A stretch of DNA of 64,000 nucleotides, taken from Paenibacillus sp. IHBB 10380 (lineage in GTDB: Bacteria > Bacillota > Bacilli > Paenibacillales > Paenibacillaceae). Made by a program: the position numbers and the translations under genes. The stretch is taken from the NCBI RefSeq assembly GCF_000949425.1, contig NZ_CP010976.1, positions 5,394,001 through 5,458,000 on the forward strand, written 5' to 3'. Position 1 is the first letter of the stretch. Each line of letters starts with the position of its first letter. Below the pieces are notes generated by a model that did no database searches, was not told the DNA's origin, and was given only the letters and a program-made list of their open reading frames with translations. This document shows, piece after piece, positions 11,476-64,000 of the stretch.

Positions 11476-11497
11476 TGTGGAATGTTGAAATTGACGA

Positions 11498-11558
11498 TTG
11501 ACACTTGAAATAAGTACACTGTATACTGTGTATAAAGATATATACAGTAGACACAGTG
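11498..11558 (+). promoter_or_regulatory. Promoter with inverted-repeat operator of the GntR/ABC operon
   Basis: A sigma-A promoter TTGACA (11498-11503), 18-base spacer, TATACT (11522-11527). Over the -10 lies an inverted repeat with arms CACTGT-A-TACTGT (11517-11529) and ACAGTA-GAC-ACAGTG (11544-11558). The operon encodes a YtrA-type GntR repressor, whose known B. subtilis relative binds AGTGTA/TACACT-type sites, so autoregulation is likely. Confidence 0.78.
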
Positions 11559-11594
11559 AGTGAGAATTTAACCATTCATAGGGAGCGATACTAA

Positions 11595-12329
11595 GTGAAA
11601 CAAAAAGTGATGAGAGACGCTTGGATGGTTACTAAAAAAGATTTGAAGAGCGAAAGATTTATGATTCTATGGTCAATTATCTTTATGGTTTATACAGGAG
11701 GAGCGACTGGAACTCTAATTGAGAGCGGGCTGAGTCATCAAGACATGGAACAATTCTTTAGCCCCTTCGTTGATAGTATGATGCTTATGCTTATTCCTAT
11801 GCTGGGGTTTTATTTCTCCAGGAAGTCGTTCAAGTATTTAACAGAGGACTCATATACACAGATGCTTGCGTACTTCCGAACATTACCTATTGCCCCTAAT
11901 GTCATTATGAGAGCTAGACATATACAGTTGGGAATCGCATTCATTCTGAACAGTATCGTCTTTTTTACCGTCATATATGTTAGTAGTTATCATATTCGAT
12001 TACAATTATCGATCTTACCGTATATGGCCTTCGCTCTGATATGGATTGGATATTCAATAGCAATAAATGGGTTATATATCTACTTAGAATTTTTGTGTAA
12101 CGGGAAGAAATATTTCTGGATGACGATGTTCCTTATGTTGATCACGGTCATTGTAGGTTTAGGGATACACTTTATGGGTGTAAATATACTGGAATTAACA
12201 TTAGATAGTGCCAAAGCGTATGGATTCGGATCACCGTTCATGTGGGCTGCTCTGATCGGGGGAGTAGTTACCCTAGTTCTATGTGGCAAGTTAACACTTC
12301 ATAAGCTCCAGATGAGAGATCTGGTTTAA
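11595..12329 (+). CDS. ABC transporter permease (ABC-2-like)
   Basis: A 244-residue protein with about six membrane segments (for example IIFMVYTGGATGTLIESG, MMLMLIPMLGFYFS, LGIAFILNSIVFFTVIYVS). It starts with GTG at 11595; ATAGGGAGCG lies upstream. It resembles the membrane partner of small Bacillus GntR-regulated ABC systems (Ytr-like). The regulator and an ATPase gene follow in the same direction. Substrate unknown; such systems often respond to cell-wall-active compounds. Confidence 0.78.
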   Translation: MKQKVMRDAWMVTKKDLKSERFMILWSIIFMVYTGGATGTLIESGLSHQDMEQFFSPFVDSMMLMLIPMLGFYFSRKSFKYLTEDSYTQMLAYFRTLPIAPNVIMRARHIQLGIAFILNSIVFFTVIYVSSYHIRLQLSILPYMAFALIWIGYSIAINGLYIYLEFLCNGKKYFWMTMFLMLITVIVGLGIHFMGVNILELTLDSAKAYGFGSPFMWAALIGGVVTLVLCGKLTLHKLQMRDLV

Positions 12330-44278: not shown

Positions 44279-45514
44279 TTAGGGTTGTGTAACCGAACCT
44301 ATAAATAACCAAGCCTTACTTTGTGTATCTTCAATCGCAAAGAAGAACGGTCGATTGAGGGTCATAGTCACAGGTTCTGAAGGGGGAGCGGACCCGGCGT
44401 CTACGAGTACACTCGTTACTGCTGTAGCTTCTGTTCCTTTTTCATTCACTTCGATTAATGTTTCATGCATGATTGAACTGATATAAAGAGGTAGTTCATT
44501 AGACATTTGCGAGAAATCAGCTTCTTCGGGCTGGAAAGCTTTCTTCATCCCTAAGTTCTGCAGCACGGTCTTTAATTGTTGCTTATATTCAACTTTGAAG
44601 CGGGGTAGACCTATGTCCACAGTATTGTAATCATAGGGTTGCTGCCATGGAGAAGGGTTATTCCAGAGCTCTTGTTGGAGCTCATCTAGTGACGATTGCT
44701 CACTTGGTAGAATAATGAGCATGGACATCCGTCCGTCTCCATAAGGGAGTCTAATCGATTTCCAGTTCTTGGTCTCAGCATAGGGAAAGGAGTATTGCTG
44801 CCGCATCATTTGAACTTGCTGAGTAGATCCGTCCTGCCGTGTGAATGATTGTTCCTGTGTATGATCTTCGGAGAATGGATGCTGCCATGTTCCATTGAAA
44901 TAGATCACATTGATAAGAACAGACAGGGTGTCTTCACTTAAGGGTTGATTAAGAATGTGAGTGATTTTATCTCGGGTATGTTTCTCAACCCAATTATTAA
45001 TTTTATCCATTGTTTTAGTATTACATAATTTCAAAGAGTGAATGTCAGCATTGTAGCTATCTTTACTCGCGCGAAGAAAAGGCTTTTTAAACTCCATTCC
45101 TTCTTTGACCCAGACTGAATTCGCTATATCCAGTTGAATGCCGTTATCGGAACCTGAGAGTAGCTTTCTTAATTGTTCATTATATGTATTCAATTCCTCT
45201 AAATCTAAGCCCTCCCACCCCAGCGTCTTTGCCATTTCTAACGCCGTTTCTCCGGCGCTCCCATTATAGGCGAGTGCTAGTCCAGTAGATATGCTATATG
45301 GAGAAATCATCACATTCTCTCCCCCACCACTTTCAACAAGCTGGCGATGAAGCTGTAAGCCCAGTGTATTCTCAGCCTGTATGATCTGAGGATCTATGAG
45401 ATTTACGGCTTGCTGTCTTTCTTTCAGAGATAATGCGGGTGAAGCTTGGCTAGATGCTGAACAAGCCGGGAGTATAAGCGTAAGCAGACAGATGAGAACC
45501 CGTAATTTATACAA
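44279..45514 (-). CDS. Serpin-type protease inhibitor, lipoprotein
   Basis: About 411 residues. An N-terminal signal peptide ends in a lipobox (LILPAC), so the protein is probably anchored outside the membrane. The fold is serpin: NVMISPYSISTGLALAYNGS, VNVIYFNGTWQHPFS-type strand, hinge NEKGTEATAVTSV, and signature LNRPFFFAIEDTQSKAWLFIGSV. The reactive loop is VLVDAGSAPPSEP. I set a TTG start at 45514, 9 bases after AAGGAG; TTG at 45523 touches it. It would inhibit extracellular serine or cysteine proteases. Confidence 0.9.
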   Translation of the reverse strand: MYKLRVLICLLTLILPACSASSQASPALSLKERQQAVNLIDPQIIQAENTLGLQLHRQLVESGGGENVMISPYSISTGLALAYNGSAGETALEMAKTLGWEGLDLEELNTYNEQLRKLLSGSDNGIQLDIANSVWVKEGMEFKKPFLRASKDSYNADIHSLKLCNTKTMDKINNWVEKHTRDKITHILNQPLSEDTLSVLINVIYFNGTWQHPFSEDHTQEQSFTRQDGSTQQVQMMRQQYSFPYAETKNWKSIRLPYGDGRMSMLIILPSEQSSLDELQQELWNNPSPWQQPYDYNTVDIGLPRFKVEYKQQLKTVLQNLGMKKAFQPEEADFSQMSNELPLYISSIMHETLIEVNEKGTEATAVTSVLVDAGSAPPSEPVTMTLNRPFFFAIEDTQSKAWLFIGSVTQP

Positions 45515-45523
45515 ACAAGACAA

Positions 45524-50373: not shown

Positions 50374-51357
50374 GTGAGAAAAAAATCGATGAATGGCGTT
50401 TTAGCTCGAAACACGATGCTTGGAGATGAAGAAATATATCAAATTCGTAGAATATTATCCCGTAGTGAGCTGTCTGTTGTGTATATCGTACGTCATGTAG
50501 ATACAGGAATCATGAGCGTGATCAAAGAGTTCTTTCCGAGTGCCTTGGCTCGTCGTTCTTCCGACGGTAAGACACTTCAATACTTGCAAGCTTCGGTCTC
50601 GCCACAATTTGTGAAGCTAATGGAGGCATTTCAGCGGGAAGCTTGGGCATTACGTGATCTACAGCACCCAGCAATCGTCCGTTATGAGGACTACTTCGAA
50701 GGGAACGGGACAGCGTATCTAGTGATGGAGTATTGCCGAGGTATAACGTTGGACCGAGTCGTGAGAAAGAATGAGCAGAGCATGAATGCTAACTTTCTAC
50801 GAACTTCCATGCTTCCGCTGATCGGGGCGATGGAACATATTCATCAACAAGGATTCGTACACCGAGATATAAAACCTGCCAATATTATCATTGGGGAGGA
50901 TGGACGGAGCAAGTTGATTGATTTCGGGTCTGTCATTCGTTATACAGAATCTGATGCCGATCGCCCCATCTTTACTACGGCTGGATATTCACCCTTAGAA
51001 TTGTACTCAAATAAGTCGTTACAGACCCCTGCGGCGGATATTTATAGCTTAGCGGCAACACTATACTTTTGCTGTATCGGAGCAGCGCCTACAGCTGTGC
51101 CGACACGGTTATTTGAAGATAAGTTGGAGTCGGTTCGCTTCTTAAATAAAGACATTTCGCCTTTCTTATCGCGTGTCATTCATTGGGGGCTTTCTCTTTC
51201 CACCGATAAGAGGTGTGGCTCCCTTCGATGGTTTAGAGCGGCACTACGAGCAGAATATATATTACAAAAAAAGAGTGTGGTTCGGCTAACGGGTCGTAAA
51301 CCCACAGCTGTACCACACTCCCTTCCAACAGAGCGAGAATTCCACCACTCAGACTAG
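50374..51357 (+). CDS. Serine/threonine protein kinase
   Basis: A 327-residue eukaryote-like kinase without a membrane segment. Lys51 (VIKEFF), Glu89 in helix C, catalytic loop VHRDIKPANII (Asp165) and DFG (183-185) are all intact, so it should be active. The start is GTG with GAGAGG 7 bases upstream. It opens the cluster that also has FHA and PP2C proteins, so it probably phosphorylates cluster proteins that the FHA domains read. Its end overlaps the convergent VWA gene by four bases. Confidence 0.92.
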   Translation: MRKKSMNGVLARNTMLGDEEIYQIRRILSRSELSVVYIVRHVDTGIMSVIKEFFPSALARRSSDGKTLQYLQASVSPQFVKLMEAFQREAWALRDLQHPAIVRYEDYFEGNGTAYLVMEYCRGITLDRVVRKNEQSMNANFLRTSMLPLIGAMEHIHQQGFVHRDIKPANIIIGEDGRSKLIDFGSVIRYTESDADRPIFTTAGYSPLELYSNKSLQTPAADIYSLAATLYFCCIGAAPTAVPTRLFEDKLESVRFLNKDISPFLSRVIHWGLSLSTDKRCGSLRWFRAALRAEYILQKKSVVRLTGRKPTAVPHSLPTEREFHHSD

Positions 51358-53408
51358 GCTGAGTGGTTGGTATTGTTCCCTGTATAAATGGTAGTAACGG
51401 GTTTAACCGCCTTATAGCGAAGTTCAATCTCGGTCTTCCCATCTTCAAAGGTGATATACAATTTATCATTGAAGTGGAGGGCTTCTTTCTTGTTTTTAGG
51501 AAGAGGAGATTTCCCCCGAACCACAGCACAACGTGTATGATGTCTGACATATAATGCCCCATTCTTTCCCGGTTCGAATATAATATATTCGCTCTCCGGC
51601 AGGTTCTCATTCACATCAAGACTTCGGAATAACTGCATCAGAGTAATCTGTCTGCCTGGAAATGAAGTCAGCGGCCAAGACTTGACTGGAATATCCGTAC
51701 CGCTGGCTGTATTTAAGAAATAGCCTTCCAGCTTTCCTGCAAATTCCGGTTTAGGACGTAACCAGAGGTACATAAGAATGCCAACAATGAGAATAACGGC
51801 TACGGCAGCACCTATAATCTTATAAAGTGTATATTTGGATTGAATAGTCAGGTGGAAGAGAGCCGTCACGGTTCCACCTTCAGAGTCTGTTGCCAAGATT
51901 GCTATTTCCGATTGACCTGTACGCTTGGGCGTTAAAGTTAGCGTGCTTCCAAGTAATTCTGTAGGTAACTTGTCCCCCATTGCCTCCGGCAGTGAATAGG
52001 TTATGAGATCCTGATTAGGGTCCTGAATATATTTCCCGAGATCCAATGTGATTGCCCCATCTTCTTTGATGAAATTCAAATCCAATGACCCTGTTACTTG
52101 GGGAGGGAGGTTAGTGATTTTCACTTTATTGGATGAGCTCTCACGATAGAAGTTGGGTCCGTCAATCATGACTTTCCAAACATACTCCCCTGAATTAGGA
52201 AACGTATAATCTGTTCGAAAACCTTTGTTAGTATTGGTCATAGGAATACGCTGTTCTTCCTTACTTTCAACCTCTTTGACTACCAATTCGGCCTTCAGGC
52301 TGGTGTACACCGCATCATCTTTCAACCTCGTTGTTGCTCCGGGTGTTGCAAGATAGGCTTCAATCTCTGAAGGTTTCCCCTTGATCGGTTTATCATGACT
52401 GAGCTTGGCCTCAGCCTCTAGATTATAACTTCCTAACAGATTGATCTTGATCCAATCTCCTTGTTTACCTTTGAACTTAAGCACTGCAGTTCCTTGTTTC
52501 GGGTTAGAAATTTTCATTAAGGAATACTTATCGGATTTGAAAAGTCTCGTATTCTCAGAGTTGAAATATATTTGTGTTTCTTTTAATGGATGTTCTGAGA
52601 GCAGAATAATATTTGCTTCCTCCATGCTTGAATTGGGAAGTTTTACTTTGACTTCCTGTAGTTTACCTGTCGCTGTAACTCCTGCAACAGGTACGAGTAC
52701 AGATCGTATCTCGCTGGCGAAAATTTGATTGAATATTTCAGGAAGATCGTCAGCACTACTTGTCATGAATGACGCTCCCCCCGTCTGGGAAGCGATTTGT
52801 TCTAGTTCCTTCTGGTTTACGGTACCGTCATGATTAAGTCCGATCGTGTAAATCGGGAACCCGTTCTTATCTGCTTTGGCTATAGCTGCTGTTACGTCTT
52901 TATCGGAATCTTGTTTCGCTCGCTCACCACTAGAAGGACCGAAATCGGTCTCCCCATCGGATAATAGAATGAGAAAGGGTAATCTGCCCTGAACTTGAGA
53001 AGATTGATCTGAATTCCCCGCCTCTAGCACTTCAGCCCCTTTGAGGAGACCTAGTCCCATATCGGTATAATTGGATCGTTTTAATTCATTAATTTGTTGC
53101 TTGAGTGCCTTCTTCTTCTCCACCACAGCAATGGAAGTGAGAGGTTGGGAAGCCACAATACGATCATTATAGGCTACGAAGCCGACCCGTGTACGACTAG
53201 CTTCACTCATATCCATGAATAGTTGGATAACCTCAGCCGATATACGATCTTTATCACTAGTACTCATGGAGAAGCTCGTATCCAGAACGAAAACGGCATC
53301 AAAAGCCTTGCCACTAGTATCTTTAACAGATGCCTCTGCGTAGATTGTCGAAGCTGCAAAAAATATGAATCCGAAAAACAGGTAAAAAGTCCTTGATAAT
53401 ATTCTCAT
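51354..53408 (-). CDS. VWA-domain membrane-anchored protein
   Basis: A 684-residue protein with a signal peptide (FFGFIFFAASTIYAEA), a von Willebrand A domain whose metal site VFVLDTSFSMS (DxSxS) is intact, Ig-like beta regions, one C-terminal membrane segment (about 548-570, IIGAAVAVILIVGILMYLWL) and a cytoplasmic tail of about 115 residues. The tail (YIIFEPGKNGALYVRHH, LHFNDKLYITFEDGKTEIEL) looks FHA-like. It could link an external adhesive domain to the phospho-signalling set. AGGTGG precedes ATG 53408. Confidence 0.85.
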   Translation of the reverse strand: MRILSRTFYLFFGFIFFAASTIYAEASVKDTSGKAFDAVFVLDTSFSMSTSDKDRISAEVIQLFMDMSEASRTRVGFVAYNDRIVASQPLTSIAVVEKKKALKQQINELKRSNYTDMGLGLLKGAEVLEAGNSDQSSQVQGRLPFLILLSDGETDFGPSSGERAKQDSDKDVTAAIAKADKNGFPIYTIGLNHDGTVNQKELEQIASQTGGASFMTSSADDLPEIFNQIFASEIRSVLVPVAGVTATGKLQEVKVKLPNSSMEEANIILLSEHPLKETQIYFNSENTRLFKSDKYSLMKISNPKQGTAVLKFKGKQGDWIKINLLGSYNLEAEAKLSHDKPIKGKPSEIEAYLATPGATTRLKDDAVYTSLKAELVVKEVESKEEQRIPMTNTNKGFRTDYTFPNSGEYVWKVMIDGPNFYRESSSNKVKITNLPPQVTGSLDLNFIKEDGAITLDLGKYIQDPNQDLITYSLPEAMGDKLPTELLGSTLTLTPKRTGQSEIAILATDSEGGTVTALFHLTIQSKYTLYKIIGAAVAVILIVGILMYLWLRPKPEFAGKLEGYFLNTASGTDIPVKSWPLTSFPGRQITLMQLFRSLDVNENLPESEYIIFEPGKNGALYVRHHTRCAVVRGKSPLPKNKKEALHFNDKLYITFEDGKTEIELRYKAVKPVTTIYTGNNTNHSA

Positions 53409-53680
53409 GTTTTTGTAAAACCACCTTTTTTTCAGTTACTAAATGGGTTGTAAGTATGTATAAAATAGGCATGGGAAGCGGGAGTAGAAGCTTTTGTGAT
53501 TTATAAAAATAGGACTGTTGGTTTAAATATATTTTTGATGGGTTGTAAAAAGTTTACACAAAAAAGTTTATCGGTAATTGTTCCTTGAATATTAATAGTT
53601 ATCCAATAATTAGGACCTTATACGGACTTCAAATGCCAGTTCTCTCCTAAATTTAGGTCCAAATACCCCGTAATATACTT

Positions 53681-53720
53681 CGGTTCTATATATTGACAAT
53701 ATAGAACATATTTCCTTAAT
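53681..53720 (+). promoter_or_regulatory. Promoter with palindromic operator for the sheath-tube operon
   Basis: TTGACA (53691-53696), 18-base spacer, TAATAT (53715-53720). The -35 sits in the loop of a perfect inverted repeat: GTTCTATAT (53681-53689) and ATATAGAAC (53697-53705). A bound dimer would block RNA polymerase. The RNA would have a leader of roughly 130 bases before the first short ORF. Confidence 0.7.
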
Positions 53721-53861
53721 ATTAACCCCATGACACGGGAAATTTTTGGGAATGAAGTCTTATTTGCTCGAAATGAATCATTGTGATGATGGGAAGAGCA
53801 GAAGAAAGAATGACCACACTTCTCAAGTCGGAGTATGCAGTAAACGGGGAGAGGAGGAGGC

Positions 53862-53930
53862 ATGAATTTTTATGAGCCGTCAAATCCTGAATTTTGGGGT
53901 CTTGAGACACGAGTGGCTTGTAAACATTGA
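53862..53930 (+). CDS. 22-residue leader ORF upstream of the sheath gene
   Basis: ATG 53862 has an outstanding ribosome site (GGGGAGAGGAGGAGG), better than that of the sheath gene itself. The product MNFYEPSNPEFWGLETRVAC plus KH ends 12 bases before the sheath ATG, which has almost no ribosome site of its own. This suggests translational coupling or a short functional peptide. No homologue known to me. Confidence 0.5.
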   Translation: MNFYEPSNPEFWGLETRVACKH

Positions 53931-53942
53931 TGCTGACCATTC

Positions 53943-56111
53943 ATGGACATTATCAATCAAACGAATCGGACGATGCTTTTTGAGGAAATCAATCCAGAGA
54001 AATTAGATCTTGTAACTATCGTAGGGGATGTTAAAGGAATTGACAGCCTGAGCGATGACAAAGTCAAAGAGATCCACCAACACCTCTTGGTGAACAATTT
54101 TGATGAATTTCTAGACAAATTTTCACCAAGTGTGTACTCATTCTTTAATGCTGCCAATCAGAAAGTGATGTATGCCTTGAAGAAGCCTGAAGGATTAGCA
54201 GAAGATTGTATTTCTGAGATCCGCATTGATCAGAATAATGATTTCTTAAAGATGTTATTTACACTTATCGATACGAAACGCAGTCAGGGTATTACGAATG
54301 TGGATTTCAAATTCGAGAATTTACTCGATATGATTTCTCCGAAAAAAGTGATGGATGATATTCGCCAAGTGCGTAAGGAAATCCACTACCTATTCGGACA
54401 GTATGAGAAGTTAGATGAGGGTGATCCCAAGAAGTTAGACCTTGGAGACAAGCTGAATACCATGTTTGAAGACGCAAGTCAGAATTACAACAATGTCATG
54501 GCGATGTTGCCACTTGCCATTGAGGATATTAAGACCCGTCTTCTACTAGGTAATTCTCAAGAAGAGAATATGTCTGAAGCGATCCGTATCGGTACTTTAA
54601 CCATTGGAGACAGTGGGGAATTGAAGATTATCGAGGCACCAAAAAGTGAAAGTACAGAATTGCTATTGCTTGATGAGAGTGGAACCAATGAACTGGTGAA
54701 CGTCTTTGAAGATGATTATAACAGTGTTACAGAATCCCCTTCAGGGTATGTCAAAGATCTTGTCGTGCGTACGTTCTGCCCACTTCCGGCTGTGCATGAA
54801 GAAGTAGATATCTCAACAGAAATTCAGAATTATAATACCTATTTAGAATTTTACAAGACAGCTAAGGATGATTTCGTCAAAACGGTCAAGCCATTGGTTG
54901 AGAAAATTCTTGGCGTCAAGATGTTCTTTGATCAATATGCGATTAAGAACAAAGGGATGTTACCGTCACTTCTGATTACGAATACCAAGCTTGAGATGAT
55001 GGTCAAAAGTAGCAATATCCCGAGACTTGAAACATTCCTGAATACGGTGAATTCCAAGAATGAATTCTCTGATACCATCTGGTTCGGTATTGTGCCTTCC
55101 ATCGAGCTAGAAACGGCAGGTCACGCTAAAGTGAGTCGTGAACGTTTCCGTGGGAATGAGAAAATCGTTAAGCAGGATGGGAATAACCTTGAATCGCTAA
55201 CGATGCTTCTTCAGGTCATTAAGGATTACAAAGTGCAGTTGTTCTTCAACTTTCAATCTGGAGAAGATACAACGTTTAGCAGTATGGCAACAGCAGGCAT
55301 TGATAAATACATCGACAAATGTGCTCCATTGCTTCGTAAGGAATACAGCGAATTTGCGATTCCTTGTGTACCTAACTTCACCATTATTCCGAAGGATAAA
55401 TCGGGTGTGGTGATTGATAGTCGTATGCTTCAGACAGAGGATGGAGCGCAGCTCTCCAAGGAGAAGGAAGATATTCTGAAATTGTGGATTGAAGGCGTGT
55501 ATGTAGGCGCTTCTTATGTAGCGGCGGGTATTGTGGCTGCTTATCAATGTCCAGAATATTTGAAAGAATCCTTCAAGAATGTGAGTAGGGAGTTCCCTGG
55601 TGTTCGCTATGATATTGAGGCTAAGGACAACAGTTTGCGTTCTGTCACAACGATGGCCAAGGAAATCACTGGATTCACGAACAATATTAAGGATTCTATT
55701 AATCGCAAGAACTTTGGATTTGTATTCTCCTCGGAGAGTGCTCAGCTACAGGATAAAGATATCCGTCGGATCACTGTCTATAAAGCGAGAAGCCTAGCTG
55801 CTTCGGAAGACGGGTTCGACTCGATCTATAAGACACTTGTCAGTACCTATATAGAGCGTATTCTTCGCTTTCAGACAGGTGACTTCAAACATGAGAATAT
55901 CGTGAAATTCTTCAGTAACAATCCCGGCAGTCAAAAGAGTAAGTGGCTGGGTACGCGAGGATTCATCAACTCCATTATTCAAGATGGAGACGATATGACC
56001 TATGTGATCGATGAGAAAAATAACCTGTGTCACATTGACTTGATCTTTAACGGTAACGTGAAGAACTTGGAAGTGATGATTACCAAAGCAACGAGTACTG
56101 TTAAAGCATGA
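53943..56111 (+). CDS. Contractile sheath-like protein (TssC/phage tail sheath type)
   Basis: A 722-residue soluble protein. The C-terminal third follows the TssC layout: an Ala/Gly-rich helix (LWIEGVYVGASYVAAGIVAAYQ), then YKTLVSTYIERILRFQTGDFKHENIVKFF, comparable to YLKAIMRDKIGSFKSREDVQ in TssC, then HIDLIFNGNVKNLEVMITKA. The N-terminal 240 residues could stand for TssB. The next gene encodes a tube-like protein, which supports the call. No clear ribosome site; probably coupled to the leader ORF. Identification rests on pattern and context, not on alignment. Confidence 0.68.
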   Translation: MDIINQTNRTMLFEEINPEKLDLVTIVGDVKGIDSLSDDKVKEIHQHLLVNNFDEFLDKFSPSVYSFFNAANQKVMYALKKPEGLAEDCISEIRIDQNNDFLKMLFTLIDTKRSQGITNVDFKFENLLDMISPKKVMDDIRQVRKEIHYLFGQYEKLDEGDPKKLDLGDKLNTMFEDASQNYNNVMAMLPLAIEDIKTRLLLGNSQEENMSEAIRIGTLTIGDSGELKIIEAPKSESTELLLLDESGTNELVNVFEDDYNSVTESPSGYVKDLVVRTFCPLPAVHEEVDISTEIQNYNTYLEFYKTAKDDFVKTVKPLVEKILGVKMFFDQYAIKNKGMLPSLLITNTKLEMMVKSSNIPRLETFLNTVNSKNEFSDTIWFGIVPSIELETAGHAKVSRERFRGNEKIVKQDGNNLESLTMLLQVIKDYKVQLFFNFQSGEDTTFSSMATAGIDKYIDKCAPLLRKEYSEFAIPCVPNFTIIPKDKSGVVIDSRMLQTEDGAQLSKEKEDILKLWIEGVYVGASYVAAGIVAAYQCPEYLKESFKNVSREFPGVRYDIEAKDNSLRSVTTMAKEITGFTNNIKDSINRKNFGFVFSSESAQLQDKDIRRITVYKARSLAASEDGFDSIYKTLVSTYIERILRFQTGDFKHENIVKFFSNNPGSQKSKWLGTRGFINSIIQDGDDMTYVIDEKNNLCHIDLIFNGNVKNLEVMITKATSTVKA

Positions 56112-56134
56112 TCGGTTCACTAAAGCGTATGTTC

Positions 56135-56196
56135 GAGGCGTTCTTTAATAAGCTCGCCTCTACACATAAATTCTGGAGACGATCAAACGCTCCAGA
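56135..56196 (+). promoter_or_regulatory. Two RNA hairpins between sheath and tube genes
   Basis: GAGGCG (56135-56140)/CGCCTC (56155-56160) and TCTGGAG (56172-56178)/CTCCAGA (56190-56196). Without T-runs they are not terminators; they could protect or process the mRNA so that the tube is made at a different level. Confidence 0.5.
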
Positions 56197-56230
56197 CCCA
56201 ATATTAGCCATTTTAAAGGAGGAAGTATTA

Positions 56231-56662
56231 ATGGGATTTATTCTTAAAGTAGAAGGCGCAGAAACGATTGAACTAGGTATGGACAACATTCAGAAGGTTG
56301 TATACGACACGGATACACCGGATGACTCCAACGCAAGATCAACAGATGTAGGTTCAACACTAAGAATTAGTGGTAAAATCATCACCGCGACTGACGGGGA
56401 CAAAGCAGATGATACGCTGAAATTGGCTAACTGGTCACTTGTACCTGCTGAGAAGGCAGATTGCTACCGTAAAGTTACATTGAAAGTGATTGCAGCGGAC
56501 CAAGTTGTTCGTGAAGTAAGTTTCCCTAACGCCTTTGTGGTGGATTATACCGAAAGTTTCGGTGATTCCGAAGGGGTAGGAACATTTAACTTGTATATCA
56601 AGCAAAAGAAAGACAAAACAGAATTCGCTGCCATTCTAGGCGGATATGCATTCTCACAATAA
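56231..56662 (+). CDS. Hcp/tail-tube-like protein
   Basis: A 143-residue beta-rich protein (MGFILKVEGAETIELGMDNI at its start, VTLKVIAADQVVREVSFPNAF and GTFNLYIKQKKDK later). Length and strand pattern fit Hcp and phage T4 gp19-type tube proteins; clostridial homologues are, as I recall, labelled membrane-associated protease 1. ATG 56231 has a perfect AAAGGAGG. The same frame is open up to an ATG at 56108 that overlaps the sheath stop, giving a possible 184-residue form. It would stack into the inner tube. Confidence 0.75.
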   Translation: MGFILKVEGAETIELGMDNIQKVVYDTDTPDDSNARSTDVGSTLRISGKIITATDGDKADDTLKLANWSLVPAEKADCYRKVTLKVIAADQVVREVSFPNAFVVDYTESFGDSEGVGTFNLYIKQKKDKTEFAAILGGYAFSQ

Positions 56663-56703
56663 AGCATTTGCATCATTTGCCGCCTAATGAAGGCGACAAT
56701 CTT

Positions 56704-56744
56704 GCAATTTTAAGAGGCTTCGGCCTCTTAAAATGCTTTTTTTT
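56704..56744 (+). terminator. Terminator directly after the tube gene
   Basis: GCAATTTTAAGAGGC, TTCG tetraloop, GCCTCTTAAAATGC, then T8. One of the strongest hairpins in the window, placed inside an otherwise collinear cluster; it should give sheath and tube much higher RNA levels than the genes after it. Confidence 0.95.
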
Positions 56745-56809
56745 CTTTATTGTTCAGACCTTCTATTGTAATAGAGAGCGTTATACATAAAGGCGGGGGA
56801 TCAAGGTCA

Positions 56810-57256
56810 GTGACTAATTATTATCAAATTCTCGGTGTTGGTCGGGATGCACAAGCAGTAGAGATCAAACAAGCCTACCGACAATTAGCCAAGCGATACC
56901 ATCCAGATACGAATCAGGGCAGTGAAGAGGCTGCACAACGATTCAAACAGATCCATGAAGCATATGAGGTTCTGAGTAAGGAGTCCTCAAGACAGGCATA
57001 TGATGCTAAGTCAGCTAGTGCGAATAGTCAGAACACACATCAACGTAAGAATGCACAAAGTGAATCAACGGGTAGGTCGAAGACGAACCCCACAGCATTT
57101 AACGCCGAACAAATGCGTAAACAGTTTGATCAGTTTTTTGGATATCAAGATAAGTCGAAGGAAGGGTCTTCTCAATCTAAAAAAGAAGAGAACTCCAAAA
57201 ATCCACTCGATACTTCTGCCATATTCGATCGTTATTTTGGAACGAAAAGAAAATAA
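56810..57256 (+). CDS. J-domain (DnaJ-like) protein
   Basis: About 148 residues. [33 protein letters not shown] is a complete J-domain with the HPD motif; the rest is a Ser/Gln/Lys-rich tail with SAIFDRYFG near the end. It lacks the zinc-finger and C-terminal domains of DnaJ. The start is GTG 56810 with AAGG and GGGGGA upstream, not the ATG at 56750, which precedes the ribosome site. It is probably the partner of the Hsp70-like protein encoded at 63149. Confidence 0.88.
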
Positions 57257-57305
57257 ATAAATGAATGAATCGTGAATACCCCTTAAGGAGATGGAGGTGG
57301 CGGAT

Positions 57306-57842
57306 ATGAAGGCGCGTAAATCCGTGTGGATTATAGTGATTGATGTGATCATGTACGGCATTATAGCCGGCATTATTCTTTACACTTTATTACACCCTGA
57401 GGATCAAATATTGAAAATTTCAGTCACCGTGGGAGCGGCCTTTTTTATAGGTGCAATCCTATTGCAACGCTTGACTAGAAAGACTTCACGTACTGTAGAG
57501 AATCAGGTCGTGAAGTTGGTTCTATTAGATGACGATGGAGAACGTATGAAGGAATGGTACATCGAAGGAGAGACATCGTTACTCATTGGAAAAAACAGTC
57601 AACGCGGTGAAGTTGATATAGATTTATCGGAATGTGAATATGCGTCACTCATTAGTTCAGAGCATGCGGTACTGAACCGAGCGGGTGCACGGTGGTACAT
57701 TGAGGATATGGAATCCAATAGTGGGACGGGTATTAGACAAGCGGGAACAAGTACCGCTAGTAAGTTGGTTGTTGAAGAGCCGCTACAGATTGGAGCGGGA
57801 GATTTGATCTATATCGCCAACACGCGACTGCTAGTGAAATAA
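57306..57842 (+). CDS. Membrane-anchored FHA-domain protein
   Basis: About 178 residues. Two N-terminal membrane segments (VWIIVIDVIMYGIIAGIILYTLL and ISVTVGAAFFIGAILL) are followed by a cytoplasmic FHA domain: LLIGKNSQRGEVDIDL, ISSEHAVLNRAGARWYIEDMESNSGTGI (the S-x-x-H and N-S-G-T positions). It should bind phosphothreonine made by the cluster kinase and tether a partner to the membrane. ATG 57306 with GGAGG 9 bases upstream is preferred over ATG 57291. Confidence 0.88.
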   Translation: MKARKSVWIIVIDVIMYGIIAGIILYTLLHPEDQILKISVTVGAAFFIGAILLQRLTRKTSRTVENQVVKLVLLDDDGERMKEWYIEGETSLLIGKNSQRGEVDIDLSECEYASLISSEHAVLNRAGARWYIEDMESNSGTGIRQAGTSTASKLVVEEPLQIGAGDLIYIANTRLLVK

Positions 57843-57890
57843 ACGTATAGCCGCGCTTTGGACTAAGATATTTGGAGGAATGAAGACAAA

Positions 57891-58406
57891 ATGAGCTTGA
57901 CAAGATGCGCCAACGGACACATGTTCAGCACAAGAAAGCATGGTAATACGTGCCCCTACTGCAACATTACGGTAGAGGCTACGCCGAAGGGAGAGCCGAG
58001 AAGGCAGGCTCCAGTAGATGCAGAAGAGAAGACGATGCCCTATCTAGGGGAAACCATGAGTATTCATCCCGTTACGGGTTGGCTGGTTTGTATTGAGGGA
58101 CCTCAGATGGGTCAAGATTATCGGGTAATGTCAGAGAAGAATTTCATTGGACGCGCGGAGGAAATGCATATTCGTATTCTCGGAGACAATACCATTTCTC
58201 GTAGAAATCATGCTGTTATCGTCTATGATCCGAAGAAACGGAATTTCTATCTGCTTCCAGGGGATGCTTCAGGACTAGCCTATCATAATAACGAAGCAGT
58301 CTATTCACCTGCCGAGCTGGCGGCATATGATTTAATTCAACTGGGGCACAGTAAATTCATCTTCATTCCTCTGTGCGGCGCTCATTTCGAATGGGAAAAC
58401 AATTGA
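57891..58406 (+). CDS. Zinc-ribbon FHA-domain protein
   Basis: A 171-residue soluble protein. The N-terminus RCANGHMFSTRKHGNTCPYC holds one likely zinc site (C/H...CxxC). The FHA domain follows: FIGRAEEMHIRILGDNTISRRNHAVIVYDP, with R-A, S-R-R-x-H in place. It lacks the usual N-G-T/S in the last loop (here GDASGLAYHN), so ligand binding may be altered. TTTGGAGGAAT precedes the start. Homologous T6SS Fha proteins trigger assembly on phosphorylation. Confidence 0.88.
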   Translation: MSLTRCANGHMFSTRKHGNTCPYCNITVEATPKGEPRRQAPVDAEEKTMPYLGETMSIHPVTGWLVCIEGPQMGQDYRVMSEKNFIGRAEEMHIRILGDNTISRRNHAVIVYDPKKRNFYLLPGDASGLAYHNNEAVYSPAELAAYDLIQLGHSKFIFIPLCGAHFEWENN

Positions 58407-58413
58407 GGACGTG

Positions 58414-59274
58414 ATGTTAGCGATGTTGCAGACGGTAGAAATAGAGCATTATATCGTTATTTTATCAGCACTTATCTTATGGATTGTATTGTACTATATC
58501 CGGCGAGTACTCGTACGACGTCAATCAACCACGACCCCTACCACTGGGATTCAGATTGGGAATGGACAAAGTATCGGAAGACGGGAAGAGCAGGATGACT
58601 ATTTCTCCAGTTCAACCACTTCTGTCGGTACACTTGCAGTCATCGCCGATGGGATTAGCGGTTTGTCTAACGGAAGAATGGCGAGTACGCTCGCTGTAAC
58701 GGTGTTTAGCAAGGAATTTCTTTTATTGGAGAAGACGGAGGATTTCACTGAATTTTTCTCCAAGGCAGCAATGCAGAGTAATAGTGGAATTCTAGCCAAC
58801 CTAAGCGGAAGTAACGGTGGAACAACCTTGGTCACAGCTGTGGTATCTTCTGGAATGCTTCACTGGGCAGCGGTGGGAGATAGTATGATCTCGGTGTTCC
58901 GAGAGGGCGAATTTATCTCTATGAATTCCAAGCATACGGTCGAGACGTTACTTCACGAGCAAGTTCTTAGTGGAGAAATGACCAAAGAAGAAGCTGAGAC
59001 AAGCCCTGTCCGTAAGCATTTGGTCAATTATTTGGGATATGAAGGCTTTAGAAATATGGAGATCGGTGAACCCTTTCGTTTGCGCAAACAGGATAGAATT
59101 ATGCTTGCTAGTGATGGGATCTACGATGCTTTAAGTGAAGTAGAGCTTGAAGAAATGTTGAAGCAGAAGAAGCCAGTGGAAGACATCGCTGACGATATCA
59201 TCGAACAGATTGAGGCTCTAGGCTTAAGAAATCAGGACAATGCGACAGTTATTATACTAGAAAAGGGCTGGTGA
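58414..59274 (+). CDS. PP2C-type protein phosphatase, membrane-anchored
   Basis: About 286 residues. One N-terminal membrane segment (YIVILSALILWIVLYYI), then a PP2C domain with the metal-binding aspartates in place: GRREEQDDYF, VIADGISG, VGDSMISVF, LASDGIYDAL and DNATVII. It should remove phosphates placed by the cluster kinase. The start is probably ATG 58414 (GAGGA just upstream); GTG 58411 and ATG 58423 are alternatives. Confidence 0.9.
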   Translation: MLAMLQTVEIEHYIVILSALILWIVLYYIRRVLVRRQSTTTPTTGIQIGNGQSIGRREEQDDYFSSSTTSVGTLAVIADGISGLSNGRMASTLAVTVFSKEFLLLEKTEDFTEFFSKAAMQSNSGILANLSGSNGGTTLVTAVVSSGMLHWAAVGDSMISVFREGEFISMNSKHTVETLLHEQVLSGEMTKEEAETSPVRKHLVNYLGYEGFRNMEIGEPFRLRKQDRIMLASDGIYDALSEVELEEMLKQKKPVEDIADDIIEQIEALGLRNQDNATVIILEKGW

Positions 59275-59278
59275 TTCC

Positions 59279-61111
59279 TTGCGGCATCCGCAAATCCGGA
59301 TCGCTAGAGACAAGGGGGAACACATGCGGAAGGAGAACAGTGATTTCAAGACCGGTTTCGTTTCTGAAGCGGGTTCTTTTATTAATAATAAGGATTATTT
59401 CGCTTACATAGAGCTAGATGATATGGCTTGTTATGTCATTGCAGATGGGATCGATAACGATCAAGAAGCTCACAGTGCCGAGATGATAGCCAAGACGGTA
59501 TTAGAGAATTTCATAGAGCGTCCAACCTTATCGCGGAGACAACTTAAAAGCTCATTACATGAAGCACATGAATGGCTGAAGTTCGAGAGTCGGAGGGTTC
59601 GGTTGAAGGCCAGTCTACTGGTGGTAGTAACCAACTATACCAAGATGATCTGGGCATCCAGCGGTAACGCGAGGCTATATCATTTCCGTGGGGGAAGGCT
59701 CAATCAGAAAAGTAAAGATCAGAGTCTATCACAGGTTATGGCAGATGATGGTTTCCTCCCAGATGAGACTGTATCACAGCATGAGGAGCGTGGCAATTTA
59801 CTTCATTACATGGGTAATCCAGATCGTTTTCACCCGTATATTTCGCCTCGTATTCCCTTGTCAGATGGCGATGTGTTGTTACTCTGTACATCGGGATTAT
59901 GGGAGCAGGTTAATCTTCCAGAAATGCTTGATGCATTGGAGGAATGTAAAGAGCCAGAGGCTCTAACAGATACGCTTGAGGAGATACTTCTCAGCAAGCA
60001 GAAAAGAACCATCAACAATTACACGGCTGTCGCTATTTATACGGATAAGACGTATAAGGAGCCACCTAAGAATCGTAAGAAATGGATCAAACGTATTCTT
60101 ATTGCAATGATGGCTTTGCTGTTAACAGGTGGTGGAGTCTGGATTTATAAAGTAAGAGAAGCAAATCGGATCGCTGAAGCAGCCGCTAATATGGTGGAAT
60201 TCGAACGTGACGGAGACGAATATGCGGCAGATGGTGATTATAGTAAGGCGCTTAAATCATATAGCGAGGCAAGGAACGCAGCTTCCAAAGTGAAGGACAA
60301 GATTCATACCAACCTTATTGGAAGAAAGCAAAAACTGGCCCGGATGTTAGTTGACGGTGACGAATATTTGAAGGATAGCATCTACGATAAAGCCGTGTCT
60401 AGTTATACGAAGGCGCTAGAGAATGCGGATCATTGGGATATGTTCGATGAGGCGGATATCCAAGAAAGAATCGATCGTACGACGGATTATGAAGTTGTAA
60501 CAGAACAGATTAGGCAGGGAGACCTCAAATCTCAGGGTCAGGATTATAGCGGTGCTCTAGCTATTTACAAGAAGGCGAATACGGCCGCAATTGAAGTGTC
60601 GTACACCTCAGCTCAGAAGGATCTACAAGATAAGATGAGTAAGGCTCAGGAGAAACTGGATGCCGTGCAAATGGAGACGATTAACCTAAAGGGTGACAAG
60701 CTGGAGCAAAAAGGCGACCGCAGCTTCGATGCTCAAGATTATGCAGGGGCTATTGATAGCTACATGCAGGCACAGGAGAAATATCAGTCCACTGGCAAGT
60801 TGGAGCGGGTATTGGCGATGGAGCGCAAGATTGCTAAGGCGGATGAGAAGTTACATCCTGTCGTTCCTGTGGTTCCCGTAGTTCCCGAATCAGAAGCTAT
60901 GACAGATAATAGTAACTTTGCAGATCAAGGAACTCCTTTTCCCTACGAATCGGTGACAGAGACTGATCCACAGGCTTCTAGGAAAGAAACTGTAGCACCT
61001 CCTGCTGGTGTGGATGATAACAAACAGAATGTGAAGGATGTAACGACGGATGTAACAGCGGATGATTCAGACCCGATAAGCCCTACCCCTGAAAGCAAGG
61101 AGGAATTGTGA
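59279..61111 (+). CDS. PP2C-like domain fused to membrane segment and TPR-like repeats
   Basis: A 610-residue protein: PP2C-like domain (about 1-265), membrane segment (about 278-295, ILIAMMALLLTGGGVWIY), four TPR-like repeats each beginning GD(E/L/R) and containing Y-x-x-A-(L/V/I)-x-x-Y, and a Pro/Ser/Thr-rich tail (VVPVVPVVPES). IADG is kept, but SDG is replaced by TSG (LLLCTSGLWEQ) and the last DN by NN (NNYTAVAIY), so it is probably a pseudophosphatase. Positive charges before the segment place the repeats outside. Start TTG 59279; ATG 59324 with AAGGGGGAA is a strong alternative. Confidence 0.82.
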   Translation: MRHPQIRIARDKGEHMRKENSDFKTGFVSEAGSFINNKDYFAYIELDDMACYVIADGIDNDQEAHSAEMIAKTVLENFIERPTLSRRQLKSSLHEAHEWLKFESRRVRLKASLLVVVTNYTKMIWASSGNARLYHFRGGRLNQKSKDQSLSQVMADDGFLPDETVSQHEERGNLLHYMGNPDRFHPYISPRIPLSDGDVLLLCTSGLWEQVNLPEMLDALEECKEPEALTDTLEEILLSKQKRTINNYTAVAIYTDKTYKEPPKNRKKWIKRILIAMMALLLTGGGVWIYKVREANRIAEAAANMVEFERDGDEYAADGDYSKALKSYSEARNAASKVKDKIHTNLIGRKQKLARMLVDGDEYLKDSIYDKAVSSYTKALENADHWDMFDEADIQERIDRTTDYEVVTEQIRQGDLKSQGQDYSGALAIYKKANTAAIEVSYTSAQKDLQDKMSKAQEKLDAVQMETINLKGDKLEQKGDRSFDAQDYAGAIDSYMQAQEKYQSTGKLERVLAMERKIAKADEKLHPVVPVVPVVPESEAMTDNSNFADQGTPFPYESVTETDPQASRKETVAPPAGVDDNKQNVKDVTTDVTADDSDPISPTPESKEEL

Positions 61112-61114
61112 TTT

Positions 61115-62401
61115 ATGAAGGATATCGTACAGGACCGGATTAGCAGGATGGAGGATTTACAACAACGTCGCATGTTGAAGAATATGATGACAGGTGTGTT
61201 TCTGAATCTAGTAGAGTATCAGGATGATTTGAATCGGAAGTTGGAACGTCGGGTATTCGATGAGGTCGAAGGTGACGATGGGAAGCATGATGTCTTTACG
61301 GCGTTATGCTCAAGGGAAGAATTGGACCCGATACATGAATTTCTATACCCGATGATCCCACAGGATGCGGAAGTGCCTGTTATTGATATGAAAGGTATCG
61401 TCGATGCTTTGGCTCAGAAGGAAGAGGTACTGCTGACTACGCTATTTCTACAGTGTAATTATTCGTTAATTAGACAACTATTGCAAAGTGATAGGGAATT
61501 TCAGGGAGAACTACTCACCACGAAGGGACGATATACCGTTAAGGTTAGACTGAAGCAGAACAGGACTTATCAGGATCAGATTGAGAAACTGTACCATGTA
61601 TTTATCACTAACAGTCTTCCATGGAGAACGGTCAATCATCCCTATATACATAAATTTGTTGATGTACTGTTGACGGGGTGTGATGGGGAATTAGAAGAAA
61701 CGGAAGAAATCTCGCAAGTTACGGTTCATTTAGAAGAATACGAGGCATTCAAACGAATGAATCTTATACCGCTGTGGAACATTCAGAAGCTAGAGCTGAA
61801 GACGGGTGGATTTCCTATTCCGGCGGAAGACCGTGTGAATTATGAACATGTGCTTCCGTTACGTAAAACCGGGACTAGACATGGTTATCTTGTAGATGGC
61901 GATGAAGAGAACATCCGTTATATCAAGCGTACACAGGACGAGATTACGATCGTATCCCCCCGCGATAAATCAGATATATGGCATTTACTCCAGCTTGCAG
62001 AACCGGTAGACACGGTGATCGGTAAGCTGGATTATGACGTTATATCGAACCGTAAGGTAGAGGGGTTTATCGGCAAATACAGACATAAACAGGATCAAAG
62101 GGTGAGATCCAAGGGTGAGATCATTCGCATGACTCAGGCCTTTGCAGAATCGAAGATGCTAGAACTGGTCGATTACGAATTAGTAGAGTCTGGCGTGGGT
62201 CGTTCCGTTACCTATGAACTGAATCCTTTTGTTAGCGATCATGTACGGTCGGAGCAAGGAAAGACACGCATGCTTCTTCGGTTTCGGAGTAGAGAGAGTC
62301 GGGAAGAGAACCAGTTCATATTGGAGGATCTAATGAGCTTTCTCGTATCTGAGATTCAGCTAGCTTTCCCTGAATATAAGTGCGAAGGAGAATGGGCTTG
62401 A
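61115..62401 (+). CDS. Unrecognised cluster protein (428 residues)
   Basis: A soluble, charged, largely alpha/beta protein without signal or membrane segments. No motif is recognised; similar genes accompany the tube gene in other Firmicutes, as I recall, under uninformative names. AAGGAGG lies 11 bases before the ATG. Tight packing with neighbours (overlapping the next start by four bases) suggests complex formation; a baseplate role is possible but unproven. Confidence 0.78.
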   Translation: MKDIVQDRISRMEDLQQRRMLKNMMTGVFLNLVEYQDDLNRKLERRVFDEVEGDDGKHDVFTALCSREELDPIHEFLYPMIPQDAEVPVIDMKGIVDALAQKEEVLLTTLFLQCNYSLIRQLLQSDREFQGELLTTKGRYTVKVRLKQNRTYQDQIEKLYHVFITNSLPWRTVNHPYIHKFVDVLLTGCDGELEETEEISQVTVHLEEYEAFKRMNLIPLWNIQKLELKTGGFPIPAEDRVNYEHVLPLRKTGTRHGYLVDGDEENIRYIKRTQDEITIVSPRDKSDIWHLLQLAEPVDTVIGKLDYDVISNRKVEGFIGKYRHKQDQRVRSKGEIIRMTQAFAESKMLELVDYELVESGVGRSVTYELNPFVSDHVRSEQGKTRMLLRFRSRESREENQFILEDLMSFLVSEIQLAFPEYKCEGEWA

Positions 62402-63087
62402 ATTATATCTGGGACCTCATGATCCGCGGACAGGAATTAGGAATGGCCAAGAAAGACATCTACTTCATGCCTGCCAAAGTCTATTCGCCATATATGGAGC
62501 TTAGTCAAGAAGATCTGAATGCCATGACGGTTGGGCGTGACGTTGAGGTGAATCCGTACTATCGATTCCACGATATTTTTAATGGGATGTTCGATATCAA
62601 TAACTCCGAAGATATAGAACTACGCGGTGCATTGTTCGATATCTTAATTCATTTTTTGGCCGATATCGATTTGATGCAAGGGATGAACAAGCGGGAGTAT
62701 CACATCCGCTTTATCCTACGGGATATTCAAGAGGGTCTGCTAGGAGAACCCGTGAAAGAGAATATTTCACTGTTCGACCGAGAGGAACAGGAGACTATTG
62801 CAGCTAATGTGCTACGACTGTACGACACTGGAGAAGCACTTCATTTGTTGAGATATACAGTAAGTCAGATATTTCAACATTCGACGATATATGCGAACTG
62901 TGAGGAGAAGGATGAACTGCTGTTCTATATCGGACAGAAGGAGAATGAAACAGCACGTAACAAGCTTCAATTGATTATGGACCTGTTTCTCCCCATCCGG
63001 TATCGCGCAGAAGTGTACTGGAACGATCATTTCGGCATTATCGATGAAGATTATACGATGATTCAAGATCGTATCGCACTCTATTAA
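62398..63087 (+). CDS. Unrecognised cluster protein (229 residues)
   Basis: A soluble protein (NYIWDLMIRGQELGMAKKDI, later IDLMQGMNKREYHIRFILRDI, IENEKDE-type acidic stretches). No family recognised. The TTG start at 62398 has AAGGAG 7 bases upstream and overlaps the previous stop, a sign of translational coupling; the in-frame GTG 62380 and ATG 62392 fit less well. Role in the apparatus unknown. Confidence 0.75.
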   Translation: MNYIWDLMIRGQELGMAKKDIYFMPAKVYSPYMELSQEDLNAMTVGRDVEVNPYYRFHDIFNGMFDINNSEDIELRGALFDILIHFLADIDLMQGMNKREYHIRFILRDIQEGLLGEPVKENISLFDREEQETIAANVLRLYDTGEALHLLRYTVSQIFQHSTIYANCEEKDELLFYIGQKENETARNKLQLIMDLFLPIRYRAEVYWNDHFGIIDEDYTMIQDRIALY

Positions 63088-63148
63088 CAATCAGGTCTGT
63101 ACAGGCTGTAAGGATGACTTCACACATGATCAGTGAGGGGGAAAGGGC

Positions 63149-64000
63149 ATGAAGGGTTATTCCTACAAATTGCATAACAATCCCACAACGAAAGTCTCCG
63201 AACGTGGTGTGGCTAAGTATGGCCGAGATGAGCTTATGGAGATGACCACATTTCAGTTGCGGAATATTTGCTATAAACAAAGATTAGTTGAAGGACTGGG
63301 CAATAACTTGGACCGTGAAAGTCTAATCCGCATCATTATGAAGTATTTGAGTGCGGAGGAACGGTTATTCATAGGCCCCATCTGTGAGGGCGGCTTGGAT
63401 AGGGTTCAAAGTACGATTCGTAAGTATATGCAGCTTCCCTTACAGGGCGATGGAGGGATCCGTGTACCTGCAAGGCTGATTCTTTATTCAGGGATGGCTA
63501 TGGATAAGTCTGATAGTTATCGTGTAACAGCTACAGCACCGCTAACTGAATCGAACGTGTTATTGGTGAATGATCGGATGGAGCTATGCGGCATCCTTAA
63601 TCTGCAACAAGATGAGGGCAAGCATGGGCAATATTATCTGTCAACAGATCGTGAAACACAGTGGGTGCTTACATCCAATCGCCAGTATAGCCTATTATTC
63701 TTGCGCAAGCGTGAGTCGGAATACATCTACAATACCTATTATCAGGTGCATGACCAACCTCCAGCCAATATCCAATATTATAAGATTCCACTCGCAGAAC
63801 TGGAAATAAGAGAACTAGAAGAGACAAACGCCGTGCTTGCCATTGATTTCGGTACGTCTAACACGACGGCGGGTGCCTTTCTATATAACGGTTACGCGGC
63901 ATCGCCAAGTAGTCTAGATCTGCTAAATGGACAAATTCATATGGATGCCATTAACTACGTTAAGTTCCCTGATACCACGTATAAGAAGACGGAATGGATT
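63149..64000 (+). CDS. Hsp70/actin-fold ATPase with N-terminal extension (right-truncated)
   Basis: The frame starts at ATG 63149 (GTGAGGGGGAAAG upstream) and is open to the window edge, giving 284 residues so far. Residues 25-62 (ELMEMTTFQLRNICYKQRL, then LDRESLIRIIMKYL) resemble a SAP or Rho-N-like helical unit. From about residue 229, VLAIDFGTSNTTAGAFLYNG is the phosphate-1 motif of Hsp70 and related ATPases. A long non-ATPase region before it is unusual for DnaK. With the J-domain gene it suggests a dedicated chaperone for the apparatus. Confidence 0.8.
   Translation, partial: MKGYSYKLHNNPTTKVSERGVAKYGRDELMEMTTFQLRNICYKQRLVEGLGNNLDRESLIRIIMKYLSAEERLFIGPICEGGLDRVQSTIRKYMQLPLQGDGGIRVPARLILYSGMAMDKSDSYRVTATAPLTESNVLLVNDRMELCGILNLQQDEGKHGQYYLSTDRETQWVLTSNRQYSLLFLRKRESEYIYNTYYQVHDQPPANIQYYKIPLAELEIRELEETNAVLAIDFGTSNTTAGAFLYNGYAASPSSLDLLNGQIHMDAINYVKFPDTTYKKTEWI

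Follow-up and report, generated by a model that had tools for sequence, protein, structure and literature searches.

A conserved Paenibacillus gene block joining a contractile sheath and tube to phospho-signalling and chaperone genes: likely machine genes of a separate contractile injection system in Bacillota

We analysed a window of 64,000 nucleotides (G000:C1:5394001-5458000) from the 5.79-Mb genome of Paenibacillus sp. IHBB 10380, whose last part, from 50374 to 64000, holds a block of genes for a contractile sheath protein and an Hcp-like tube protein together with kinase, FHA, phosphatase and chaperone genes (Table 1). An earlier reading of the DNA letters, here called the original prediction, had listed most of these genes. 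Every gene that it named is an intact open reading frame (ORF), and Pfam matches bear out the kinase, the VWA protein, the J-domain protein, the two FHA proteins and the PP2C phosphatase. A run of plus-strand genes begins at 53943 and encodes, in order, the sheath, the Hcp-like protein, the J-protein, the two FHA proteins, the PP2C, a pseudo-PP2C, a 428-aa protein, a 235-aa protein and an Hsp70-like ATPase that continues past the end of the window; the kinase gene lies before the run on the same strand, and the VWA gene on the opposite one. These ten genes of the run are referred to as the core, to which the 428-aa and 235-aa proteins, absent from the original prediction, also belong. Genes beyond the window were read in a second interval (L002, G000:C1:5456000-5475999), whose positions are converted to those of the window by adding 61999.

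Table 1. Features of the block and of the adjoining sequence; positions are those of the window unless preceded by L002, and numbers in the last column are E values of profile matches.
Feature	Position	Strand	Basis or remark
Ser/Thr protein kinase	50374..51357	+	PF00069 2.8e-34
VWA-domain membrane protein, accessory	51354..53408	-	PF00092 9.3e-20
Contractile sheath protein, single chain, 722 aa	53943..56111	+	structure prediction
Hcp/TssD-like tube protein, 143 aa	56231..56662	+	PF17642 below cut-off; Hcp1 6bdc
Intrinsic terminator/attenuator after sheath-Hcp	56707..56734	+	12-bp stem, TTCG loop, T run
J-domain (DnaJ-like) protein	56750..57256	+	PF00226 1.2e-26
FHA protein, two N-terminal membrane segments	57291..57842	+	PF00498 4.5e-07
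FHA protein with CxxxH...CxxC zinc-ribbon-like start	57891..58406	+	PF00498 6.9e-06
PP2C-type phosphatase, one N-terminal membrane segment	58411..59274	+	PF13672 (PP2C_2) 3.3e-13
Pseudo-PP2C, membrane segment, TPR-like tail	59279..61111	+	PP2C_2 0.0033, below cut-off
428-aa core protein	61115..62401	+	candidate TssF/gp6-like baseplate wedge
235-aa core protein (ORF list)	62395..63087	+	overlaps 428-aa gene; 230 aa from ATG 62395
Hsp70-like ATPase, 883 aa, first part	63149..64000	+	whole gene L002:1150-3801; HSP70 0.00079, below cut-off
258-aa protein	L002:3830-4606		just beyond window end, between Hsp70-like and VgrG
VgrG	L002:4702-6243		PF05954 (Phage_GPD) 2.3e-10, above cut-off
Pentapeptide-repeat protein	L002, after VgrG		
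Imm11-like protein	L002:7437-7964		0.00042, below cut-off
DUF4280 PAAR-like protein	L002:7936-8595		7.7e-17, above cut-off
VgrG-ADP-ribosyltransferase domain fusion, 1081 aa	L002:8558-11803		1.3e-15
ADP-ribosylglycohydrolase	L002:11803-13035		4.5e-77

The sheath protein has no match in Pfam or NCBIfam and none to a PHROG with E below 0.04, and a profile search of the PDB with its family returned nothing usable (two matches at E 0.012-0.014 are short stretches on NS1-type proteins). In its predicted structure the contractile tail-sheath fold that the original prediction had proposed is clear. On structural comparison, the predicted 722-aa chain aligns with one-chain sheaths over their full length (residues 2-9 to 703-715), and its best matches are chains of contractile injection systems (CIS), of the antifeeding prophage (AFP), of pyocin and of Photorhabdus virulence cassettes (PVC), rather than entries of type VI secretion systems (T6SS). 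The nearest named relative of the sheath comes from Paenibacillus glacialis (97%). For the tube half of the proposed pair the signal is weak but recurrent: PF17642 (TssD) matches our protein at 0.0017 and recurs in 19/19 Hcp-like orthologues (best 0.0015), all below the curated cut-off, as are the matches of both divergent relatives described below. With a broad Hcp profile, the sole PDB match with E up to 10 is Hcp1 (E 0.029); a profile of the close set gave nothing usable. The 19 aligned Hcp sequences have a mean column identity of 85%, and in all of them the gene starts at 56231, not at the ATG at 56108 upstream, the relatives' starts having been chosen by similarity. In another divergent genome, an Hcp-like match falls within a 241-aa frame (L145:15434-16156) about 6 kb from the sheath gene.

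Relatives of the block were collected by a pattern scan with one genome per species (84,980 species), which gave 348 stretches with a sheath relative. The best 80 of these, retained for comparison, belong to Paenibacillus, Brevibacillus, Aneurinibacillus, Lysinibacillus, Sporosarcina, Cohnella, Solibacillus and one Bacillales assembly; loci too short for a gene are left out of its count, leaving 77-80 of the 80 for the core and 73 for kinase and VWA. An alignment (A2) took 100 of 231 proteins among those listed, plus our own sequence. Because all ten core genes recur in 77/77 fully covered named relatives, 76 of them with identical order, the grouping is not due to chance. The sole exception in order is a tandem copy of sheath and Hcp; the two genes stand in tandem copy in P. 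popilliae (L060). Counted singly, the J-protein, both FHA, PP2C and pseudo-PP2C genes are found in 79/79 relatives, the 235-aa gene in 78/78 and the Hsp70-like gene in 77/77. The kinase is less constant (67/73), as is the VWA gene (55/73), which is missing from all nine Lysinibacillus loci with enough upstream sequence.

The Hsp70-like, 428-aa and VgrG genes were also found only in genomes with the sheath. Among 398 sampled Bacillota genomes, 13 carry the sheath, with a patchy distribution (4/7 sampled genomes of the Paenibacillus family itself). An Hsp70-like profile (E up to 1e-20) is found in exactly these 13, and VgrG in 11, every one sheath-bearing. The 428-aa profile is found in 12, all among the 13; at E 0.001 it missed sheath-bearing G380, where a search of that genome's ORFs alone finds it (8.5e-09). 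Fisher p values for co-occurrence with the sheath are 1e-24 for the Hsp70-like protein, 5e-22 for the 428-aa protein and 9e-20 for VgrG, and serve only as guides because related genomes are not independent.

The kinase is predicted to be active from its intact HRDIKPAN and DFG motifs; DFG is present in 32/33 aligned sequences and DLG in the remaining one. In the PP2C, the family motifs ADG, SDG and QDN are intact. The pseudo-PP2C matches NCBIfam Stp1_PP2C at 1.3e-19 with 70.7 bits against a cut-off of 230; its second metal motif is lost in all 25 sequences with letters listed (of 32), and the aspartate of the third is retained in four of these 25. The proposed pair of one intact and one degenerate PP2C holds. 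Hydropathy places a C-terminal membrane segment at 531-549 of the VWA protein, two at 12-30 and 40-58 of the first FHA protein, and one at 9-27 of the PP2C, while segment 273-291 of the pseudo-PP2C barely reaches the threshold; the cysteines of the second FHA protein were read off the sequence. With segments predicted in four block proteins, two of them in one protein, the machine may be linked to the membrane.

The original prediction had also seen in the block the control logic of T6SS. The gene set of the PpkA-Fha-PppA type, comprising a kinase with intact motifs, an FHA partner and a PP2C, is indeed present and linked to the sheath and tube genes, and may act as a switch of the machine. 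It is not universal: no kinase, FHA or PP2C match lies within the 20 kb read around the sheath genes of either of the two most divergent relatives (L143 and L144), for which reason the phospho-relay looks like an added module of the Bacillales type. PADLOC matched nothing but the kinase, its hits being kinase-containing proteins of defence systems (best mad6, 5.1e-43); with sheath and spike genes next to it, a reading of the block as a defence system was dropped.

The sheath and tube genes end in a strong hairpin with a T run. A hairpin with T-rich tail lies 3' of Hcp in 54/79 relatives, whereas the same type stands 3' of the sheath, both FHA, PP2C and 235-aa genes in none or one of 78-80 each (p 3e-21 against the next-best gene, the relatives not being independent). 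Generic scans of the block for promoters and terminators were at chance overall (28 against 29.7 expected, and 8 against 9.3 expected), and of their output we rely on the conserved hairpin alone. The conserved terminator fits a sheath-Hcp bicistron produced in excess, the sheath and tube subunits being needed in far larger number than the other parts.

For the baseplate, candidates come from the core genes and their immediate neighbour. Profile searches of the PDB with the 428-aa, 235-aa and 258-aa families gave nothing usable. With Pfam, 28 members of the 428-aa family and six of the 258-aa family showed no more than scattered matches, none shared by over two members, and the 235-aa protein has no Pfam or PDB match. 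The ATG start of the 235-aa gene was adopted from relatives. The Hsp70-like ATPase placed at the end of the block by the original prediction is upheld by its presence in every fully covered relative, together with a sub-threshold HSP70 match.

The original prediction had named two outcomes that would speak against it, predicted structures without a sheath or tube fold and a lack of baseplate or spike genes next to the block. Neither occurred: the sheath fold is clear, and a VgrG, beginning about 2.7 kb beyond the window end, a DUF4280 PAAR-like protein and a VgrG-toxin fusion are found in the adjoining sequence. The gp25, baseplate J and AAA+ genes that it had also proposed to look for were not found near the block. 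The ADP-ribosylglycohydrolase gene that follows the fusion is probably the immunity gene of the VgrG-fused ADP-ribosyltransferase. Beyond it lie orphan toxin tails and immunity-type genes, including two SUKH genes and weaker Imm3 and LHH-nuclease matches; the first orphan tail has 1347 nt at 98.9% in common with the VgrG-toxin gene. A second, distant vgrG island in the same genome (L149, G000:C1:2161000-2180999; 4955-12098) encodes a 214-aa protein, VgrG, a pentapeptide protein, an Imm11-like protein, a PAAR-like protein and a 937-aa VgrG-toxin. A gene of 211-233 aa like that for the 214-aa protein lies between the 258-aa and VgrG genes in four of five relatives read there, and is missing from our main locus.

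This spike region is itself conserved. VgrG was sought in 20 of the 80 named loci, all chosen for the sheath, and found in 20/20. In six of these 20 the downstream sequence was read, and all six have, in order, VgrG, pentapeptide, Imm11-like, PAAR-like and a second VgrG gene, with extra genes in L127 and L130; the Hsp70-like and 258-aa genes precede VgrG in all five that reach that far. The second VgrG has a long tail in L128, L129 and L130 and none in L127 and L132, and a contig end interrupts it in L131; L127 holds a further spike set with an 1838-aa VgrG. VgrG-Rhs proteins are found in Sporosarcina limicola (1837 aa), Brevibacillus laterosporus (2028 aa) and P. pabuli (at least 1781 aa). 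By analogy with T6SS, this anatomy is that of polymorphic, mainly antibacterial effectors. The Imm11-like gene is never more than one gene away from the PAAR-like gene in our two islands and the six relatives, and in the divergent L144 (Imm11 3.1e-09) it adjoins the DUF4280 gene; its product may be no immunity protein but a constant adaptor or chaperone for the tip. Elsewhere in the window, a minus-strand ORF (44279-45523) encodes a secreted-serpin-like protein, judged from the sequence by eye only.

A reading of six of the 13 sheath-bearing phylum genomes indicates which parts persist over larger distances. The two most divergent, L143 and L144, have sheaths 26-28% identical to ours and share the order sheath, Hcp, VgrG, 428-aa and 235-aa; the 428-aa gene of L144 was detected only in the 398-genome profile search (2.1e-07). 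In L144, Hsp70-like and 258-aa genes come next, with DUF4280 and Imm11-like genes upstream. In L143, the next gene encodes a 530-aa protein that matches Hsp70 weakly (7e-04); the genome's full Hsp70-like match falls beyond the 20 kb, within which no match to the 258-aa family appeared. A further genome (L148) has the same modules in a different order. From the gene content of L143 and L144, the machine core therefore includes the Hsp70-like protein. That of L144 (L144:13012-15825) matches SrfB (PF07520) at 4.1e-07, just above the cut-off, a hint that SrfB-type proteins of other bacteria may serve in similar machines. An additional protein of about 1000 aa with a weak Hsp70 match is encoded near the sheath genes of this clade (L143:15351-18380, L144:1596-4577), and L143 also has a 517-aa protein (L143:840-2390) whose start resembles, by eye, an actin/Hsp70-type ATPase. 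Given these further Hsp70- and actin-like proteins, the machine may rely on two or more ATPases of this type.

Taken together, these comparisons show a single-chain sheath, an Hcp-like tube (by a weak match), a VgrG spike, a DUF4280 PAAR-like tip, a VgrG-fused toxin with immunity-type neighbour genes, and 428-aa, Hsp70-like and VgrG genes that in the 398-genome sample are restricted to sheath-bearing genomes. We consider it very probable that Bacillota have a distinct contractile injection system whose machine module is this block, and we favour, with less assurance, an anchored and contact-dependent mode of action. In such a mode, sheath and tube would assemble in the cytoplasm on a baseplate formed by the 428-aa protein (TssF/gp6-like), the 235-aa and 258-aa proteins and VgrG. 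The membrane-spanning FHA, PP2C and pseudo-PP2C proteins could anchor the machine in the single cell membrane or act there as sensors. By phosphorylating FHA ligands the kinase would license assembly or firing, and the PP2C would reverse this, on the pattern of PpkA, Fha and PppA in T6SS. On contraction, Hcp, VgrG, PAAR and the fused toxin would be driven across the cell wall into an adjacent cell, mostly a bacterial one, and the Hsp70-like ATPase and J-protein would assemble or recycle sheath subunits in place of ClpV.

The most serious rival shares the core claim and disputes only the anchored mode: the same machine could be an intracellular or released particle, like the Streptomyces CIS or extracellular CIS (eCIS), that acts inside the producer or after lysis. 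The structural kinship of the sheath with CIS, AFP, pyocin and PVC chains speaks for this, as do the single membrane of the host, which is that of Paenibacillus generally, and the failure to find any known membrane complex. We nonetheless regard it as unlikely, since the genome has no gp25, there is no baseplate J near the block, the 19 cluster proteins scanned give no match to AAA+ or LysM, several conserved partners carry membrane segments, and VgrG-fused toxins adjoin immunity-type genes, as in contact weapons.

Sheath, tube and spike have tail-derived folds, which would suit a prophage tail that has become defective or domesticated and carries toxins, but tblastn against 50,697 phage records gave no match, viral contigs matching the search patterns and plasmid collections held no relative of the cluster, and no PHROG fell below E 0.019 for eight proteins, this value being that of VgrG against a tail protein family. 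The 19 cluster proteins include no capsid or terminase, and the gene order is fixed across relatives of seven named genera. We hold this origin to be highly improbable, in agreement with the original prediction that the block is no ordinary prophage tail. Hardly more credible is an intracellular sheath-like scaffold with a chaperone and phospho-signalling role and unrelated toxins nearby; kinase, J-protein, Hsp70-like and PP2C genes do form much of the block, but VgrG occurs only in sheath-bearing genomes of the phylum sample, in all sheath-chosen relatives tested, and directly 3' of Hcp in both genomes of the divergent clade. With no gp25, no nearby baseplate J and no PHROG, phage, viral or plasmid match, the prophage, plasmid and eCIS readings were dropped.

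Contractile injection weapons of this kind have been studied mostly in Gram-negative bacteria, and the locus offers a concrete, conserved candidate machine outside them. If the proposal of an injection system is true, T6SS-like antagonism would also be found in Paenibacillus, Brevibacillus, Lysinibacillus and other common Gram-positives, and two questions would follow: how a cell with a single membrane anchors a sheath, and whether an Hsp70 can do the work of ClpV. Among the public records listed, 'transcriptional regulator' is a frequent name for those sheath relatives that have one, and 'membrane-associated protease 1' for the tube relatives, names that have hidden the system in the databases; a search of open-licence papers for the latter name found nothing. 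No description of the gene set was found among the open-licence papers listed, judged by their titles and abstract openings, and one may exist elsewhere. The fullest form of the proposal, to which we give even chances, is a separate class of widespread, membrane-anchored, contact-dependent Bacillota weapon, in which an Hsp70-like/J-protein sheath cycle replaces the AAA+ unfoldase and a kinase/FHA/PP2C/pseudo-PP2C relay licenses firing, and which would supply the machine for the VgrG-DUF4280 and VgrG-Rhs toxins that stand as orphans in Gram-positive genomes.

Compared with T6SS, the locus shares an Hcp/TssD-like tube (by a weak match), a VgrG spike, VgrG-fused toxins including Rhs forms, and satellite vgrG islands. 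Its PAAR-like tip is also shared, being of the DUF4280 type that PMC5014421 reports for Francisella IglG. Its kinase-FHA-PP2C set resembles the PpkA-Fha-PppA control set of T6SS described in PMC12607579. It differs in its sheath, one 722-aa chain in place of TssB and TssC, in its core Hsp70-like ATPase and adjoining J-protein, and in its Gram-positive host. No TssB or TssC family was found among the cluster proteins with Pfam and NCBIfam, nor any Pfam match to TssJLM or ClpV among the 19 cluster proteins, for which no genome-wide search was made. The genome contains no gp25/TssE (PF04965; controls positive in 2/14; a family-level result, compatible with a diverged gp25 fold) and no TssK (PF05936; control positive in 1/14; a TssK-like fold in the 258-aa protein is possible). 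With no gp25/TssE or TssK family and a one-chain sheath, the system does not look like a classical T6SS, as the original prediction had proposed. Compared with eCIS, also called phage-like protein translocation structures (AFP, PVC), and with the Streptomyces CIS, the sheath fold is the same; the locus differs in lacking gp25, adjacent baseplate J and any AAA+ or LysM match in the cluster, and in having a phospho-relay and an Hsp70-like protein. The only three baseplate J genes of the genome (G000:C1:3730411, 3301604 and 2932906) lie more than 1.7 Mb from the block and are probably prophage or phage-tail genes. SrfB-type Hsp70-like proteins resemble that of L144, whereas our own has no SrfB match.

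T6SS, PVC or eCIS have been reported from Firmicutes before, with eCIS loci catalogued in 2014 (PMC4122934) and 2021 (PMC8213781), and in the sections accessible to us neither these two nor PMC3482391 mentions this gene set. The sheath of B. brevis is BBR47_44820; the 2014 table, in the portion available, prints a garbled range, Bbr47_4220-42-70, which looks like another locus. A precedent is PMC8651086, which postulates an 'unknown phage-like translocation system' of Gram-positive bacteria, in which Phage_GPD proteins adjoin PAAR_H2 (DUF4280) members in Firmicutes with no conserved eCIS or T6SS genes around the pair. We infer that these PAAR_H2 proteins are the DUF4280 family of our locus, where VgrG and DUF4280 make up a similar pair; in our case, the string of genes that holds the pair also contains, upstream of it, an identified machine. 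The system would work like a T6SS and has a CIS-like sheath, but with no gp25 or TssK family in the genome and no baseplate J nearby it fits neither group.

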